Positions 13,495-35,268 of a DNA stretch of 35,268 nt are shown here, one piece after another. A program made the position numbers and the translations under genes. Below the pieces are notes generated by a model that saw only the letters and a program-made list of their open reading frames with translations, had not been told where the DNA came from and made no database searches. Numbering within the stretch: the first letter of the stretch is position 1; each line of letters begins with the position of its first letter. Origin of the DNA: a virus; IMG/VR virus record IMGVR_UViG_3300035703_000250, positions 1 through 35,268 of that record, one strand, 5' to 3'.

Positions 13495-14568
13495 TTAGTC
13501 TAACAGGCTTTGGATTGGGACTCCGTTGCGCTCAAGGATTCGCAGGAGTTCTTCTTCTCCTGGGAACACTACGAAGTTGGATGTTCCTTGTCCTTGTCCT
13601 CTTGATCCTTGGTCTAGATAGCGGATGCCGGGGATTCCAGCTTGTCTGAGGGCGGAAGCAGCCTTATCACTTCCAAACATACCGCCGCCGAGTTCTTCGT
13701 AAACCTGTCTTCCTGTCATCTGTGGGCGCATGAATGATTGCATCCAGTTTGCCCTGAATGATTCAGGTGTGCCGCCTTCTTGAATGTTCCCAATGATTCG
13801 TTCATCGGCATTCACAAAGGCGTGCTTTTTTCCATCATCTACCAATTTGTATCTGAGGCCCATCGACTCCGGGCTGATGCGCTTCAGAATGCTTGCCTGC
13901 TCACTTATGGGCTTGTCCCAGTCCAGCATCCGGGCGATTGCTTCGTCTGGTAGGTCTATCTTGTAGAAAGCCCCTTGGTTCTGGCTCATTCCACCAGATG
14001 CCTTTACAGCCTCTAATTTTGCTAAGTCCCTTGCGGCTTTTGCTGCCGTCTCAGGATAGTCTCTATCAGGGCCGCTGAATTTTCTTGCAAGTTCAATTGC
14101 TTTATCTAGATCACCTTTACGAACCTCAGCTTTTACGTTCAGGTGTTCAAGCTCACTTGGATCAAATAATCCAGTTTTGGTTAAAAACTTATCTTTTGAA
14201 GTTGCCGACTGATATCCCTTCGCAACCTCCGGTGACTCAGCCACATACAAACCATGCCCATAGGCTTGCGCCCCCTCACCAGTCCCGATCTTCTTGGGGT
14301 CAAACTTGGTGAACTTATGGGGTGAGCCGTGGAATACAGTCGCGGCCTTGAGCGCGGTCAGCCCTTGAGCCGGGGCACTCATCCGGGCGGCGTTCTCGTA
14401 AACCTCTCGTTGAATCGGGGTTGCGTTCTCTGGGGCATCCATGCCCAAAAGCCCACGAGTCGCGGCTCCTCGGATACCACCACCCACCAACTTCTGCCCC
14501 ATGTTGCGGCGGTTGGCGAAGTCTCTTAGCTCATCCAAGAGTCCTAGTAGTGGTATCGGCCCAGCCAT
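13495..14568 (-). CDS. ADP-ribosyltransferase-like protein (ART-PolyVal type)
   Basis: 357 residues. Residues 76-120 contain VFHGSPHKFTKFD and then AYGHGLYVAESPEVAKGY, the paired His and Tyr strands of H-Y-type ADP-ribosyltransferases. The C-terminal AGIPGIRYLDQG and NFVVFPGEE segments (about 310-336) complete the fold seen in the ART domain of phage polyvalent proteins. Such enzymes transfer ADP-ribose from NAD to a target; here the target is unknown. The N-terminal 70 residues are a separate helical extension. Placed at the start of the virion operon, it could be packaged and act on the host early, which is speculation. Confidence 0.6.
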   Translation of the reverse strand: MAGPIPLLGLLDELRDFANRRNMGQKLVGGGIRGAATRGLLGMDAPENATPIQREVYENAARMSAPAQGLTALKAATVFHGSPHKFTKFDPKKIGTGEGAQAYGHGLYVAESPEVAKGYQSATSKDKFLTKTGLFDPSELEHLNVKAEVRKGDLDKAIELARKFSGPDRDYPETAAKAARDLAKLEAVKASGGMSQNQGAFYKIDLPDEAIARMLDWDKPISEQASILKRISPESMGLRYKLVDDGKKHAFVNADERIIGNIQEGGTPESFRANWMQSFMRPQMTGRQVYEELGGGMFGSDKAASALRQAGIPGIRYLDQGSRGQGQGTSNFVVFPGEEELLRILERNGVPIQSLLD

Positions 14569-15836: not shown

Positions 15837-16157
15837 TCACAATTCTATATCGGGAATCGGAATGTCAATAGGCCATTTTCCCTGATCCTGTAGAGCCTGG
15901 ACTGTCCTACGGTGAGCAGCAAGCCACTTCTCCTTCCTCTCCTCTTTGGTCATCTTGTTTCCCTGGTCGATCTCCCAATGGCACTTGAGGCATAAGGCGG
16001 CTATGTGGTTGTCGTCTGCCTTCACTCCTCTACCCTTTCCTCCTGACCAGTTGGAGTGAGCCGCTTGGGAGTTCGGGTGTCCACAGCATTGACAGGACAA
16101 CTCCGCGACCGCTCTAAGGAGTTTGGGGCTTCTGATGTAGGTGTGCTTTTGAAACAT
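15837..16157 (-). CDS. HNH-type zinc protein, putative endonuclease
   Basis: 106 residues. SCQCCGHPNSQAAHSNWSGG (about 21-40) gives CxxC plus AAHS, then GRGVKADDNH and ALCLKCHWEIDQG give the second CxxCH and the final helix. This is the phage HNH family in which AAH...KADDN...LCxxCHxxID is typical. It probably nicks or cuts DNA, with a role in recombination or packaging. The gene overlaps the end of the transporter gene by 44 bases. It is the last gene before a terminator. Confidence 0.7.
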   Translation of the reverse strand: MFQKHTYIRSPKLLRAVAELSCQCCGHPNSQAAHSNWSGGKGRGVKADDNHIAALCLKCHWEIDQGNKMTKEERKEKWLAAHRRTVQALQDQGKWPIDIPIPDIEL

Positions 16158-16617
16158 GATGAATGATCCAAGACCAGATTGCGCCGCCTGCGACTTTTGC
16201 TACGAACTGCATCAGAACAATGTGCGGCATGAGAGTACCAAACGCGATGGTCGGGAAGATAACCGAGTCAACCGCCGCCCCAGCCACATTAGAGACATTC
16301 GCCCTTTTAAGCCAATCTCCGGCCAGCTTGGTAAAAACCGCCCAATCAACAACAGCAGCAGCAGTAAAAGCCACCGCAGAAGCTATGGCAATCATCTGTG
16401 CTGATGGGTTGGCAAGATAAGTAATCCCACCCGAAACCAAGATTAGCGCAAACATCTGCTTTTGATTGATCTTCGTGTGCAGCCAGTCCCTGAGAGTCAG
16501 GTCTAACCCTATGAGAAAGAAAGCATTGATTGGGCTGACCCAAGGCCCAAATGCGGCAATTGACAGGTTAGCCACCGTCATTGCGGCGGCATAGATCACG
16601 ATTGAAACGTAAAGCAC
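16114..16617 (-). CDS. yhhQ: YhhQ/VUT-family queuosine-precursor transporter
   Basis: 167 residues with about five or six membrane segments. Key family stretches: TVANLSIAAFGPWVSPINAF followed by FLIGLDLTLRDWLH (about 14-47), then AFTAAAVVDWAVFTKL, and NVAGAAVDSVIFPTIAFG. E. coli YhhQ (about 220 residues) takes up 7-deazaguanine precursors (preQ0/preQ1); phage forms are shorter, as here. It follows the DpdA-like gene with a 22-base overlap, strongly linking the two. Proposed role: raise precursor supply in the infected cell for DNA modification. Substrate is inferred. Confidence 0.75.
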   Translation of the reverse strand: MLYVSIVIYAAAMTVANLSIAAFGPWVSPINAFFLIGLDLTLRDWLHTKINQKQMFALILVSGGITYLANPSAQMIAIASAVAFTAAAVVDWAVFTKLAGDWLKRANVSNVAGAAVDSVIFPTIAFGTLMPHIVLMQFVAKVAGGAIWSWIIHHVSKAHLHQKPQTP

Positions 16618-17330
16618 AGCTCCTCCTGAGTGTCGATAAACATGGGCGCGGAATTGTTCGCCTCGATTCTTTCCGCGATGACCTCTGCCCTTTGAGCAGC
16701 GGTTGGTGAAAGATAAGACCCAAACCGACTAAGCGAACCCGAGTTCACGGATGCATTGGTCGAGTCGGCAGAGGAAAGAGGCAGCTTGGTAAAGATGTCC
16801 GGGTCAAGCATTCTCAACCCGTGTAGCTTACAGATCGGCCTTCCCTTGTCATCGCAGATGGCATTCATAGCTTGTTTCATCCTGCGCCACCATTGCTCAG
16901 TACCAGGCTGAGAAAACTCCCCGCTTGACCCTAAAGCTACCGTCTTGAACTGCCTTGCCAACCATGTCAGTCTTGGGGTGGGTTCGTGCATATGCCAGAC
17001 CGGGACTCCGGTCATGGACTTGGGCCACCTTTCAATCAAGGCATCGTTTTCCCGATCCGTCCCATCAATCACATCAGGGATCAGGGCAAAGTCGAACCCA
17101 GGATGGCGATGCCACTCCCACACCCACTTGATGTATCCAGCTACATCCAACTTTCCACCCTGCTTCCAGACCGTGAACGCACCGTTATCAAGGCAGAACG
17201 ATTGGCAAACCTCTGCCGCGATGGGCAAGTCTTCGGGATAGCTGAACGGCACTAGAGCGTGCCTCCCAGCCAGGAACCTGGCGGCGTCTTTGCGCTGTCC
17301 CCCTACAGGGGTTCCATGATAGTGAATCAT
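16596..17330 (-). CDS. dpdA: DpdA-like 7-deazaguanine DNA transglycosylase
   Basis: 244 residues, shorter than tRNA-guanine transglycosylase (about 370). TGT-type motifs are in order: LDNGAF (Asp48, base-binding), IPDVIDG (Asp86), VALGSSGE (131-138), KLHGLRML (168-175) and SSADSTNA (Asp189, candidate nucleophile). The family swaps guanine for a 7-deazaguanine; phage DpdA members act on DNA and shield it from restriction enzymes. The zinc site of bacterial TGT is not seen, as in phage forms. The adjacent precursor transporter supports the role. No folE, queD, queE or queC homologue is in the window. A tRNA substrate is the main alternative. Confidence 0.72.
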   Translation of the reverse strand: MIHYHGTPVGGQRKDAARFLAGRHALVPFSYPEDLPIAAEVCQSFCLDNGAFTVWKQGGKLDVAGYIKWVWEWHRHPGFDFALIPDVIDGTDRENDALIERWPKSMTGVPVWHMHEPTPRLTWLARQFKTVALGSSGEFSQPGTEQWWRRMKQAMNAICDDKGRPICKLHGLRMLDPDIFTKLPLSSADSTNASVNSGSLSRFGSYLSPTAAQRAEVIAERIEANNSAPMFIDTQEELCFTFQS

Positions 17331-17653
17331 GTTGTTGCCCTCATCTCCATGCGCTTAGTGCTTTCTTCTGTTCTCCAGCAGTCCACCCTCATCCTCGCGG
17401 CCTCCAGCTTCCATTTCAGGTCTTCCTCAACCTCTATCGCCGCCGCCAGTCCCTTCAGAAGCTCTTGATACTCAGGATGTGAGTACGCCTCCCTCTCTTG
17501 TGCGTTGACTGCCTCAAATTTAAGCATCGCTTCTTTCATCAGCAGAGCTTTCTTTGATTTTCTAAATTCCTCAAGCAGCACGCGCTGGGCCTTAGCCTTT
17601 GCGTAGTCGCCTGAGTTTCTGATGATGAAGTCGATGGCGGCGTGGGCGTTCAC
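17327..17653 (-). CDS. Conserved coiled-coil phage protein
   Basis: 108 residues from a GTG start overlapping the previous stop. Almost wholly helical: AKAQRVLLEEFRKSKKALLM, then EREAYSHPEYQELLKG, then a Lys/Trp/Arg-rich end with MRVDCWRTEES. This belongs to a family common in the early regions of proteobacterial phages, with typical phrases EREAYxHPxY and RxxxWRxxE. No function is known to me. ATGA overlap couples it to the DpdA-like gene downstream. Confidence 0.6.
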   Translation of the reverse strand: MNAHAAIDFIIRNSGDYAKAKAQRVLLEEFRKSKKALLMKEAMLKFEAVNAQEREAYSHPEYQELLKGLAAAIEVEEDLKWKLEAARMRVDCWRTEESTKRMEMRATT

Positions 17654-22397: not shown

Positions 22398-22575
22398 GAC
22401 TTACATGGGCGACTGCTTGGCTGAAGTAGAAGCCAAGATCAGCAGGAACCACCGGGCCAAGATCATCAGCATGACCATAAACGGTTTGGAGTTTGATATC
22501 GATGATCTAAGTGCTAAGGCTCTGGCGAAGCTGGAAGACGAAGCTGATGAGAAGGCGCTGGAGGTGGAGGAATGA
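22387..22575 (+). CDS. 62-residue hypothetical early protein
   Basis: The first half is basic and mixed (SRNHRAKIISMTINGLEFDI), the second an acidic helix (AKALAKLEDEADEKALEVEE). No family is recognised. The start lies within the end of the preceding gene and the stop overlaps the next start as ATGA, which supports translation. Confidence 0.5.
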   Translation: MFFKTYMGDCLAEVEAKISRNHRAKIISMTINGLEFDIDDLSAKALAKLEDEADEKALEVEE

Positions 22576-22931
22576 GCCTACGAGAAGCAGCGCAGCAGGC
22601 GCTTAAGGCGTTGGAAAAATATGACCGAGTGTCGGCGCTCGAATTCCTACGCACCGCGCTTGCGGAGCCTGAGCAGGAGCCGCTCCCGAAGATGCGCTTA
22701 CTGCCCTGTTGTGGGTATCACGACGGTAGGGCGGTTTTTTGGAATCGGTTTAACGGTGTTGTTCAGTGCCACAGTTGTGGACAGCAATACGCCCCTCATT
22801 CACCGCAGCGCAAGCCGTTATCGGATGAGGAGATTGACGCCGTGTGCGCTCCGCTTGGGTTTGCCCAACTGTCTCCGCGAGAAGTCGCACGCGCCATCGA
22901 ACGCGCACACGGGATTGGAGGTGAAGCATGA
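22572..22931 (+). CDS. Zinc-ribbon accessory protein sharing a module with its neighbour
   Basis: 119 residues. Residues 1-38 carry a helical repeat segment ending LRTALAEPEQEP that is also in the next gene. LPCCGYHDG and VVQCHSCGQQY (44-75) make a CxC-type zinc ribbon, followed by PLSDEEIDAVCAPLGFAQLS and an amphipathic helix with FAQLSPREVARAIERAHGI, common in phage accessory proteins. Looks like a mosaic of phage modules. Function unknown; the shared DNA repeat (22650-22682) suggests recombination built it. Confidence 0.55.
   Translation: MSLREAAQQALKALEKYDRVSALEFLRTALAEPEQEPLPKMRLLPCCGYHDGRAVFWNRFNGVVQCHSCGQQYAPHSPQRKPLSDEEIDAVCAPLGFAQLSPREVARAIERAHGIGGEA
22650..22682 (+). repeat. 33-bp direct repeat, first copy
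   Basis: An exact match to 23180-23212, encoding the RTALAEPEQEP segment in both of two neighbouring genes. Such intragenic repeats can drive recombination between accessory genes. Confidence 0.85.
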
Positions 22932-23455
22932 GCAATGAGCCTGTGGCGTGGGTAAAGACTGAAAACTTCGTTGACGATGACGGCCTTTGGAGTGGACGCA
23001 TTGTGTTCAACCAACATGGTGACGGGATGCCCCTCTACACCCGCCCCGTCGATGACACCGCCCTGCTGCGGCAGGCTTTGTCCACCTTGGATGGTTGGGC
23101 CAATTACGGCAAGTGGGTGTGGCCCGAGTCTGCACTTGAGCAGGCTAAACGCAACACAGAAGAAACCATCACCGCCCTCCGCACCGCGCTTGCGGAGCCT
23201 GAGCAGGAGCCGATGGCATTAGAAACAGTCTACGAAACCATCATCAACTGGGACGAAAGCGGCGGAAAACGCAGCCGCAGGGAGTTGGCGCAGCGCATCG
23301 TGGCCCTCTACACGCACCCCGCAGACGACACCGCCCTGCTGCGGCAGGCGTTGGAGGCAATTGAAGGCGACCTTTCGTTGTTCAACATTCCGGCTACGGC
23401 GCGAATGTTGGAAGCCATCACCGCCCTGCGCGACCGTCTTGGAGAGAAGACATGA
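22928..23455 (+). CDS. Internally duplicated accessory protein
   Basis: 175 residues. The segment PLYTRPVDDTALLRQALS (about 35-52) recurs as ALYTHPADDTALLRQALE (about 126-143), and LRTALAEPEQEP between them is shared with the preceding gene. The opening NEPVAWVKTE is typical of phage accessory proteins with variable small modules. Coding DNA repeats 23 bases exactly (23054-23076 and 23327-23349). No enzymatic motif is seen; function unknown. Both ends overlap neighbours as ATGA. Confidence 0.6.
   Translation: MSNEPVAWVKTENFVDDDGLWSGRIVFNQHGDGMPLYTRPVDDTALLRQALSTLDGWANYGKWVWPESALEQAKRNTEETITALRTALAEPEQEPMALETVYETIINWDESGGKRSRRELAQRIVALYTHPADDTALLRQALEAIEGDLSLFNIPATARMLEAITALRDRLGEKT
23180..23212 (+). 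repeat. 33-bp direct repeat, second copy
   Basis: Exact second copy of the repeat at 22650-22682, 530 bases downstream and in the same reading frame of the following gene. Confidence 0.85.
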
Positions 23456-23700
23456 CCCGCGACGACATCATCCGCATGGCGCGGGAGGCGGGGATATGGC
23501 CAACAGAAGAATGGTCAAAAGAATACGGCATACCAACACCTAATGAGCAATGGTTGCCTGAACTTGAACGCTTCGCCGCCCTTGTCGCCGCTGCCGAGCG
23601 TGAGCGACTCGCCGCAAAGTTTATGGAGATGCACAACGCTCAACAGCACAGGAACAACTATTTTGCTTTTGCCGCAAGAGTCATTCGGGAGGAAGCATGA
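23452..23700 (+). CDS. MTRDDIIRMA-family accessory protein (copy 1)
   Basis: 82 residues. The start MTRDDIIRMAREAG and the helix ELERFAALVAAAERERLAAK define a large family of small accessory proteins in phages of proteobacteria, unknown in function. The first 32 bases around its start are identical to those of the gene at 23885-24163. It is coupled by ATGA on both sides. Confidence 0.6.
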   Translation: MTRDDIIRMAREAGIWPTEEWSKEYGIPTPNEQWLPELERFAALVAAAERERLAAKFMEMHNAQQHRNNYFAFAARVIREEA

Positions 23701-23888
23701 CCCGTGAAGAGGTGAAAGACCTTCTCAACGCAATCCCTCCAAATCTCACCGCTAATGAGTTCATCATGGCCGTGGTGAATGCCGCAGCAGAGTGGGAGCG
23801 CAGGGCTTGTGCAAAAGTGGTGGAGACTCATCCTGGCGATAAAGAGTCTCTGCTCCAGGCGGCGGCAAAGATAAGGAATCGAACATGA
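23697..23888 (+). CDS. Short accessory protein related to its neighbours
   Basis: 63 residues, starting MTREEVKDLLNAIPPNL. The segment AAAEWERRACAKVVETHPGD parallels QERDACAKVCEERSKG in the next gene, so it is probably a diverged relative. No function known. ATGA overlaps on both sides. Confidence 0.55.
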   Translation: MTREEVKDLLNAIPPNLTANEFIMAVVNAAAEWERRACAKVVETHPGDKESLLQAAAKIRNRT

Positions 23889-24163
23889 CCCGCGACGACA
23901 TCATCCGCATGGCGATGGAGGCTTGGTTGGACGTCTACGGGCTTGGTAAAGACCGTACTAAGTTTGCCGAGGCGCTTGAAAGATTCGCTGAACTGGTGAC
24001 TGCACAAGAGCGTGATGCGTGCGCGAAAGTTTGCGAAGAACGATCTAAAGGATGGGACAACCCCCGTCCTGCACGCGATGAAGCCGAAGCAATGATGCGG
24101 TACGCCGCGAAACATGAGGCCCGTGCGCTCGGAGAAGCCATCAGAGCAAGGGGGCAGGAATGA
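23885..24163 (+). CDS. MTRDDIIRMA-family accessory protein (copy 2)
   Basis: 92 residues. It shares MTRDDIIRMA with copy 1, then has EALERFAELVTAQERDACAK and a C-terminal HEARALGEAIRARG typical of the family. An exact 32-base identity with copy 1 (23450-23481 and 23883-23914) shows recent duplication or gene conversion. Function unknown. Confidence 0.6.
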   Translation: MTRDDIIRMAMEAWLDVYGLGKDRTKFAEALERFAELVTAQERDACAKVCEERSKGWDNPRPARDEAEAMMRYAAKHEARALGEAIRARGQE

Positions 24164-33493: not shown

Positions 33494-34765
33494 TCAAATG
33501 CCTCCACCGCGAGACTTCAGCTCGTCATCAATCTCTTTTTGAGTAGGCATCCTCGGAGCTTGCGTCTGCTGTCCAACTATTTTCGCAGGCTGACCAAGCA
33601 AGATGGAACCCTTCAAACCCTGAGATTGGCCGAATTGGAGATATTCATCGCGCTTCGTGTTGTAGGAGGTTGCTGCGGCGTTATACAACTGCTCAGCAAC
33701 ATTCCTGAAGTCAGCACGCTGCTGCCCTGTCAGCTTGGTTCCATCAATGATCTTTTTAGCAACATCTGTGAACCGATCAAGAGCACCAGTTGCCTGCATC
33801 GCCAATAACAATTCAGACTCTCGAACCACCGATCCAGGATCAAGCAGCTTCATGAACTTGGTGGCAGCAGTCAAGTCGCCAGCCGGGGACTTCTCATTCA
33901 GGCCAGTTGTGATCTGCTGGAATGATGCACGCATTTCATCAAATGCTTTGTAAACAGGCTCGCTTTTAAATGCGCTAGCCAATTTCATTTCATTCTCAAG
34001 GCCCTTTTGTCCTTCACCGACATTAACTTGGGTTGCTCCTGCTCGCTTGCGTTCAATAATGTAGTTTTGAATTTGTGATCGCTGTTGTGTGGATAACTGG
34101 CTTACAGGAACATTGATACCAAGCACTTGCATGGCTTCAAGAACCTCTCCAGCAGGCTTTTCAGCCTTCCCGGCTCCAGTAGCAACAACTCGTGTCTGCC
34201 CTTCTGGAGTGATCTCCGTAAGCGTTTCCTCTGCGCCAAGTTTGATGCGCTCAGGGGCATTCAGCTTGCGGAAGGCTTCGATGGTCGGCAGAACCTTCCC
34301 TGCAACGCTCGGGGCTTGCGTCAGAAGCCGCTGAAGCGTGTTCATGTCGATCTGGGGTTGACCGACCCGCACGCCTTCGCCAACCCGCTGACCCATGATG
34401 TCTTCACCATAGATTTCTTGGGTTGCGCCAGGACGCAGAATCTGCGGCAAAAGGGCTTGCGCGGCCTGCTGCTCTGCTCGAGCCTGCTGACGCTCTGCCA
34501 GTTGCTCCTGAAGCATACGCTCACGGACTGCGCGGTCATACGCTCCGGCGTAAGCCTGCTGGCCAGCCATTACACCTTGTGCAAGAAGCTCACCCACACC
34601 GCGACGCTGAGGGCTAGGGCCAGCCCCAGCCAATAGGGATAGACCAACATTCAAGAGTCCTTGCTGTTGTGCCTGCTGTTGAAGGAGTCGGGCTTGATCC
34701 TCTCCAAGCAACTGAGGTGCGTAAGAAGGTTGATTCCCAAAAAGCCGTGCGAGTAGTTCGTCCAT
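33494..34765 (-). CDS. Virion protein, putative DNA-ejection/internal protein
   Basis: 423 residues. The N-terminal third is Gln/Ala-rich (DQARLLQQQAQQQGLLNVGL, then REMLQEQLAERQQARAEQQA-like helices). The C-terminal half contains MKLASAFKSEPVYKAFDEMR, AATKFMKLLDPGSVVRESEL and TGQQRADFRNVAEQLYNAAA, a helical domain seen in internal proteins of environmental podoviruses. Coat-tail position and composition suggest a protein ejected with the genome. The first 18 codons recur at 1-54 because of the contig-end overlap. Confidence 0.62.
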   Translation of the reverse strand: MDELLARLFGNQPSYAPQLLGEDQARLLQQQAQQQGLLNVGLSLLAGAGPSPQRRGVGELLAQGVMAGQQAYAGAYDRAVRERMLQEQLAERQQARAEQQAAQALLPQILRPGATQEIYGEDIMGQRVGEGVRVGQPQIDMNTLQRLLTQAPSVAGKVLPTIEAFRKLNAPERIKLGAEETLTEITPEGQTRVVATGAGKAEKPAGEVLEAMQVLGINVPVSQLSTQQRSQIQNYIIERKRAGATQVNVGEGQKGLENEMKLASAFKSEPVYKAFDEMRASFQQITTGLNEKSPAGDLTAATKFMKLLDPGSVVRESELLLAMQATGALDRFTDVAKKIIDGTKLTGQQRADFRNVAEQLYNAAATSYNTKRDEYLQFGQSQGLKGSILLGQPAKIVGQQTQAPRMPTQKEIDDELKSRGGGI

Positions 34766-35268
34766 ATTTACCTCACAGCAGAGAAATGATCGGATTGCGC
34801 TTTCTCTTCTGCTCTAAGAGTGAAGCAGGCTGCATCAAATTCACAGGTTGTCCACGGCGCATCTGCATCCCTACCGTGGTTTGCTGCTTCGGCCCCATAG
34901 AACCAATTGCTCGAGCAGCCTGGAGTCCTTGCATCATCGTCAGACCAGTCGCAGCCTTTCCGACACCAGGAGCGATCACAGCAGGGTTTACCCCAGGCAT
35001 CAGACTGCCTCCAGCCAATTCGTAAGTGCCAGGCGGTACAAATCCTGGTGCGCCAGGAACAGGAACTCCTGCCATTGACTGAGTGGCGAAATTCCTCATC
35101 CCTTCAGCGGCGGCTTGTTCAATTCCCCCGGTAAGGAAGGGACTCGCGGTGTTTGCGGCAGTCGCAGCAGTTTGTGCCGCCTGCATTGCAGTTGCAGCCT
35201 CAGCAGCCGCAGCCGTTGCCGCAGCAGCCTCAGCCGCCGCCGCAGTAGCAGCAGCCGCCTCAGTAGCA
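34712..35268. repeat. Right copy of imperfect terminal repeat
   Basis: Second version of the sequence at 1-533: identical over the first 126 and last 165 bases, diverged between, and 24 bases longer because of eight extra codons in the enclosed gene. Supports circularity of a roughly 34.7-kb genome with a polymorphic site at the assembly join. Confidence 0.85.
34773..35268 (-). CDS. Ala-rich virion-associated protein (right-end allele, 5' cut off)
   Basis: Partial: the open frame continues to the window edge, with 165 codons including the stop present; an internal Met at 35186 is not the true start. It matches the protein at 62-583 except for the centre, where GVPVPGAPGFVPPGTYEL replaces GLPPPGPYEL and the part around ARAIGSMGPKQQTTVG differs. 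The shared Ala/Glu N-terminal region and the basic tail are identical. Most likely the same gene from another strain. If not, it would be a true paralogue. Confidence 0.65.
   Translation of the reverse strand, partial: ATEAAAATAAAAEAAAATAAAAEAATAMQAAQTAATAANTASPFLTGGIEQAAAEGMRNFATQSMAGVPVPGAPGFVPPGTYELAGGSLMPGVNPAVIAPGVGKAATGLTMMQGLQAARAIGSMGPKQQTTVGMQMRRGQPVNLMQPASLLEQKRKRNPIISLL

Follow-up and report, generated by a model that had tools for sequence, protein, structure and literature searches.

A phage gene pair of a DpdA-type transglycosylase and a queuosine-precursor-type transporter, predicted to form a salvage-only 7-deazaguanine DNA-modification cassette

Introduction

From where would a phage that encodes a DpdA-type guanine transglycosylase, but none of the genes for making preQ0, obtain a base for its DNA? 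The question is raised by two overlapping genes in the IMG/VR record IMGVR_UViG_3300035703_000250, the whole of which (35,268 bases, hereafter the window) was analysed. Transporter and DpdA together with the full pathway (CAjan, EC151) are known already, and so is DpdA without the pathway. Whether, and with what, the DpdA-only phages modify their DNA has been a standing question since 2019. In CAjan, formation of dPreQ0 (about 32% of G) depended genetically on dpdA, whereas among the measured DpdA-only phages Salmonella 7-11 contained trace dADG (about 0.02% of G) and mycobacteriophage Orion none (PMC6884629). 7-11 was the one gammaproteobacterial DpdA-only phage measured (PMC6884629). Hutinet et al. 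suggested in 2019 that the DpdA-only phages may take up precursor from outside, and YhhQ homologues were found in some phages, with no correlation with group reported (PMC6884629).

Results

Source phage and completeness of the record

The source phage is a small, freshwater-type phage, and its description as short-tailed agreed with the SU10-type portal and capsid. The original prediction had taken the window for a whole genome. The ends of the record (1-533 and 34712-35268) repeated each other with 89-94% identity over about 530 bases at a 24-base offset, and the nearest relative found by comparison of the portal protein was a circular genome of 34,712 bases. The record is therefore probably near complete, although IMG/VR classes it as linear. 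The end repeat could have arisen when a circular genome was assembled from strains that differ at the ends, or it could consist of two copies of a single gene that have diverged. A megablast comparison of phage records with the first 25 kb of the window gave no match, so no close cultured relative indicates the host.

Two further regions of the window were recorded. Several small plus-strand ORFs at 22572-24163 contained common repeated segments (MTRDDIIRMA.EA and ALAEPEQEP; repeats D6, D9 and D17) that look like internal duplication. A 357-aa ORF adjoining the terminase region (13495-14568) showed a weak match to ART-PolyVal (ADP-ribosyltransferase) at E=7.7e-5, below the cut-off.

Organization of the gene string

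The two genes lie in a string of overlapping genes on the minus strand, listed here in the direction of reading:

17327..17653, minus strand: 108-aa ORF of unknown family, heading the gene string; its stop codon shares ATGA with the start of dpdA
16596..17330, minus strand: DpdA-type guanine transglycosylase, 244 aa, ATG start, TGT-superfamily barrel, phrog_887
16621..16627, minus strand: Shine-Dalgarno-like AGGAGGA for the transporter, seen in the sequence within the 3' end of dpdA
16114..16617, minus strand: Vut_1/COG1738-type queuosine-precursor transporter, 167 aa, GTG start, six predicted membrane helices
15837..16157, minus strand: HNH endonuclease-like protein, phrog_131; its start overlaps the transporter end by 44 nt

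The arrangement first described for the two central genes was confirmed, with both ORFs on the minus strand at these positions. They overlap by 22 nt, the transporter GTG lying inside the 244-aa ORF, and AGGAGGA (16627-16621) is placed shortly upstream of this GTG within the end of the first gene. With this overlap and this motif, translational coupling was a fair description, and dpdA and the transporter gene are probably co-expressed. The 108-aa ORF matched no family in Pfam or PHROG profile searches, and its position was kept in close relatives. The HNH gene adjoined the pair in several related contigs but not in all. It was considered as a part of the system and rejected for now, because this adjacency is partial and the gene is of a common phage type; it probably lies outside the base pathway, though in the same gene string.

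The 244-aa protein is a DpdA-type transglycosylase

Profile comparisons identified the 244-aa protein as a phage DpdA-type transglycosylase of the 9g/CAjan type. The PHROG search assigned it to phrog_887 (E=8.5e-69), a family that also holds the DpdAs of phages 9g, Salmonella 7-11 and CAjan. In hhalign, an alignment of 31 relatives matched 9g DpdA with a probability of 97% at an identity of about 24% over 148 residues, whereas the probability against E. coli TGT was 0.4%, which is no detectable profile similarity. The protein itself had no Pfam or NCBIfam match, and the TGT Pfam family matched none of the 31 relatives. By profile, the enzyme thus belonged with the DpdAs of phages (9g, CAjan, 7-11) and not with RNA-acting TGTs, the placement that the original prediction had named as its own test.

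Asp48, Asp86, His113, His170 and Asp189 were invariant in 189 distinct relatives. Among the TGT-type motifs pointed out earlier, Asp48, Asp86, His170 (of HGL) and Asp189 therefore stood, and His113, which had not been named, was invariant too. Within the LGSSGE motif, Gly134 was the sole strictly invariant residue among the positions counted. Asp48 and Asp189 are the putative catalytic residues, as judged from motif order, and Asp86, His113 and His170 may form the base pocket. His170 aligned with His196 of 9g, a residue conserved in 9g-type DpdA and missing from DpdA2 (PMC6884629). The protein thus contains the conserved histidine of 9g/CAjan-type DpdA, together with a predicted TGT-like barrel and its two invariant aspartates, Asp48 and Asp189.

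The structure of the protein was predicted with a pLDDT of 84. Re-alignment of the best Foldseek chains from the PDB with VIA-align 2 gave TGTs and Cap10 throughout the matches listed (Z 14.0-15.7), and Cap10 of type IV CBASS (9ntn, Z 15.5) was level with the TGTs at the top (best Z 15.7). Tryptophan synthase alpha-subunit barrels, which came first in Foldseek alone, were read after re-alignment as generic barrel similarity. When the DpdA alignment was searched against PDB sequences, there was no match. The modelled fold supports the TGT superfamily and does not separate its DNA-, tRNA- and protein-acting members. The preference for DNA over tRNA or protein as the target comes instead from the sequence profile and from the CAjan experiments (PMC6884629).

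The transporter is related to YhhQ but is of the CAjan type

The 167-aa protein is a queuosine-precursor-type Vut_1 protein (PF02592, E=3.3e-10, 41 bits against a gathering cut-off of 27.2), and transport of preQ0, preQ1 or queuine is predicted from neighbouring genes. It also belonged to phrog_4899 (E=3e-38), which holds the 159-aa “putative preQ0 transporter” of CAjan; the idea of a subfamily new to phages was therefore rejected. The model had six helices and a pLDDT of 92, and its best structural matches were S-components of ECF vitamin transporters with Z of about 9-11, which is modest for a protein made of helices.

This protein had been called YhhQ-like. The family and the queuosine-precursor type were right, but the closeness to YhhQ was not: the models for YhhQ proper, TIGR00697 and PRK11212, scored 18.9 and 17.5 bits, under their cut-offs of 50.95 and 252. 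The conserved IAxAS and D(S/T)xxFxxIAF segments align with those of E. coli YhhQ, the COG1738/QPTR transporter of preQ0/preQ1 and likewise a Vut_1 protein, but YhhQ has 221 aa instead of 167 and the identity is 24%. Judged by sequence, the transporter is a relative of E. coli YhhQ and not its orthologue. The YhhQ type proper was present in phages as well, in Providencia PSTCR4/7 (annotated beside queE) and Pantoea Vid5.

Bacterial relatives of the transporter lay near queC, queD or queE in 9 of 75 genome loci. At one of them (L124), queC directly precedes the transporter gene and a PTPS-family (QueD) gene directly follows it. A further 4 of the 75 loci were phage-like, with DpdA adjoining the transporter (L112, L118, L120 and L127), and the remaining 62 had neither que genes nor DpdA within the flank read. 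Short Vut_1 genes beside queC, queD or queE were seen in bacteria at L124:5245-7619, L126:5989-8495, L113, L150, L162, L164 and L175, and this bacterial set possibly represents queuosine-precursor transporters outside classical YhhQ.

Precursor biosynthesis genes are absent

No member of the QueC, QueD, FolE, QueF or radical-SAM (QueE) families was found in the whole 35,268-base record. The claimed absence of folE, queD, queE and queC was thus borne out, with queF likewise absent, and the complete preQ0 cluster of CAjan and 9g (folE, queD, queE, queC) is not present. The CAjan (Seuratvirus) cluster consists of these four genes, the putative preQ0 transporter and dpdA, and the source phage shares with it the families of the last two proteins, phrog_4899 and phrog_887. 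The two phages differ in that the CAjan DpdA has 306 aa and its transporter gene lies apart from dpdA, whereas here the enzyme has 244 aa and the genes overlap. In having DpdA without preQ0 biosynthesis, the source phage resembles the Group 3 DpdA-only phages 7-11 and Orion; it differs from 7-11, in which no transporter was found within the 50 kb read.

The pairing is near-obligate for the transporter and recurs across phages

In viruses the pairing of the transporter with DpdA is near-obligate and has been repeatedly gained or lost. When viral contigs were fetched by the transporter alone, dpdA adjoined it in all 78, although these contigs are related and do not represent 78 independent events; the paired DpdAs fell into 32 rough clusters. 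Among the viral contigs fetched by DpdA alone, the transporter was present in 12 of 78. All loci together contained 101 distinct pairs, in both gene orders: 95 had the genes within 30 nt of each other and 76 had them overlapping, the latter figure being approximate, as distances were taken from aligned starts and aligned parts.

Annotated phages with the pair were PEAT2, AB3P2, Flyfo Tbat1_6, Opt-719, RCIP0319, ECO111 5-P, Lg3, LHE71 and Phc. LHE71, Lg3, AB3P2 and PEAT2 are cultured carriers; LHE71, a Tunavirus, has E. coli K-12 as its recorded host. The two-gene form had been thought notable in a podophage of 35 kb, but it is widespread: it turns up in dozens of phages unrelated to one another, and the genomes and contigs that carry it are of myo-, sipho- and podophage-like kinds.

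On the transporter tree, the label “next to phage dpdA” changed 7 times (6-8 in the bootstrap, and at least 3 by well-supported branches), and phage transporters were interleaved with bacterial ones. On the DpdA tree, a quick tree with long branches, the presence of the transporter changed 6 times. Gain and loss are indistinguishable on these trees. The DpdA of 7-11 was the sister of that of PEAT2, and PEAT2 has the transporter, while none was seen in the part of 7-11 examined, so the two phages offer a natural comparison. At L127 (Erwinia sp. S63), a BTP1-like DpdA had the transporter directly upstream, whereas BTP1 itself has none; this appears to be a gain, or a copy retained here and lost elsewhere.

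The lambdoid mEp021 group is an exception and counts against the salvage-only reading of the pair: mEp021 and MagusPhagus, the members tested, have a divergent phrog_4899 transporter and no DpdA in the genome. In both mEp021 (L009:3959-5226) and MagusPhagus (L192), its neighbours are DNA methyltransferase genes.

Discussion

The two genes are likely to constitute a salvage-only cassette for 7-deazaguanine DNA modification, that is, the CAjan pathway minus its biosynthesis genes. The transporter would import a base of the 7-deazaguanine type into the infected cell, or raise its level there, with preQ0 or preQ1 as the most likely candidates, and the DpdA-type enzyme would exchange guanine in phage DNA for the salvaged base. 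The modified DNA would then be shielded from host restriction enzymes. We infer that the target is DNA, which base is used, that the transporter works as an importer and that the modification is protective; replacement of guanine in the DNA of the source phage is accordingly a prediction. A further hint comes from the circular relative of 34,712 bases, in which no DpdA or transporter is annotated and the early region carries a C5 DNA methylase. This does no more than suggest a DNA-modification role for the pair. The gene-level part of the original prediction has stood, while the special place given to a 35-kb podophage and the closeness to YhhQ have not. In the literature searched, the salvage-only pair was not found described as a tightly coupled cassette that recurs, and an earlier description is possible.

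The main doubt about the cassette is chemical, since 7-11 yielded only trace dADG and Orion none. These measurements would also suit a degenerate remnant, a DpdA-only lineage that is mostly inactive and leaves trace modification of little effect. Decaying genes, however, would not be expected to keep five putative active-site residues invariant in 189 relatives, nor to keep the transporter beside the enzyme throughout the transporter-seeded contigs (78/78), and we regard degeneration as unlikely. The identity of about 24% to 9g DpdA, and the fact that Cap10, a protein-acting member of the superfamily, scores as high as TGT, also count against the cassette.

The other explanation of similar standing takes the enzyme to act on RNA. 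Transglycosylase and transporter would then restore or alter the queuosine of tRNA, from host or phage, in the course of infection, in keeping with the TGT-superfamily fold and with the gene context of bacterial transporter relatives, which places them in the queuosine pathway. The profile match, however, is to the DNA-acting phage DpdA, and the likeness to E. coli TGT disappears at the profile level, both in hhalign and in the Pfam search of the 31 relatives. The 244 aa show no evident RNA-binding domain or cysteine-rich zinc site, and the window contains no tRNA genes. An action on tRNA is accordingly improbable. Less probable still is that the pair counters 7-deazapurine-using immunity (type IV CBASS Cap9/Cap10, qatABCD), either by depleting the base or by undoing a protein conjugate, instead of modifying DNA. 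Cap10 binds a partner protein at its modified N-terminus (PMC11996544) and equals TGT at the top of the structural matches, but that likeness is only the one of the whole superfamily, no sequence link to the 244-aa protein was found, the profiles point to DNA-acting DpdA, and the transporter, if an importer, would raise the base pool and not lower it.

If the salvage-only cassette is taken as the working interpretation, a near-obligate and repeatedly assembled pairing with a transporter offers a testable answer to how the DpdA-only phages might modify their DNA, namely by reliance on a salvaged base, and cultured carriers such as the Tunavirus LHE71 make such testing practical. More tentatively, and with the balance still somewhat against it, these phages may form a widespread class with conditional DNA chemistry, in which the extent to which guanine is replaced, and hence the resistance to restriction, is set by the supply of 7-deazaguanine micronutrient, whether this comes from the host or from elsewhere. 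The transporter would then have been taken over repeatedly from queuosine-salvage genes of bacteria to serve DpdA. If this is true, many environmental phages would rely for their resistance to restriction on a diffusible micronutrient that other microbes produce.
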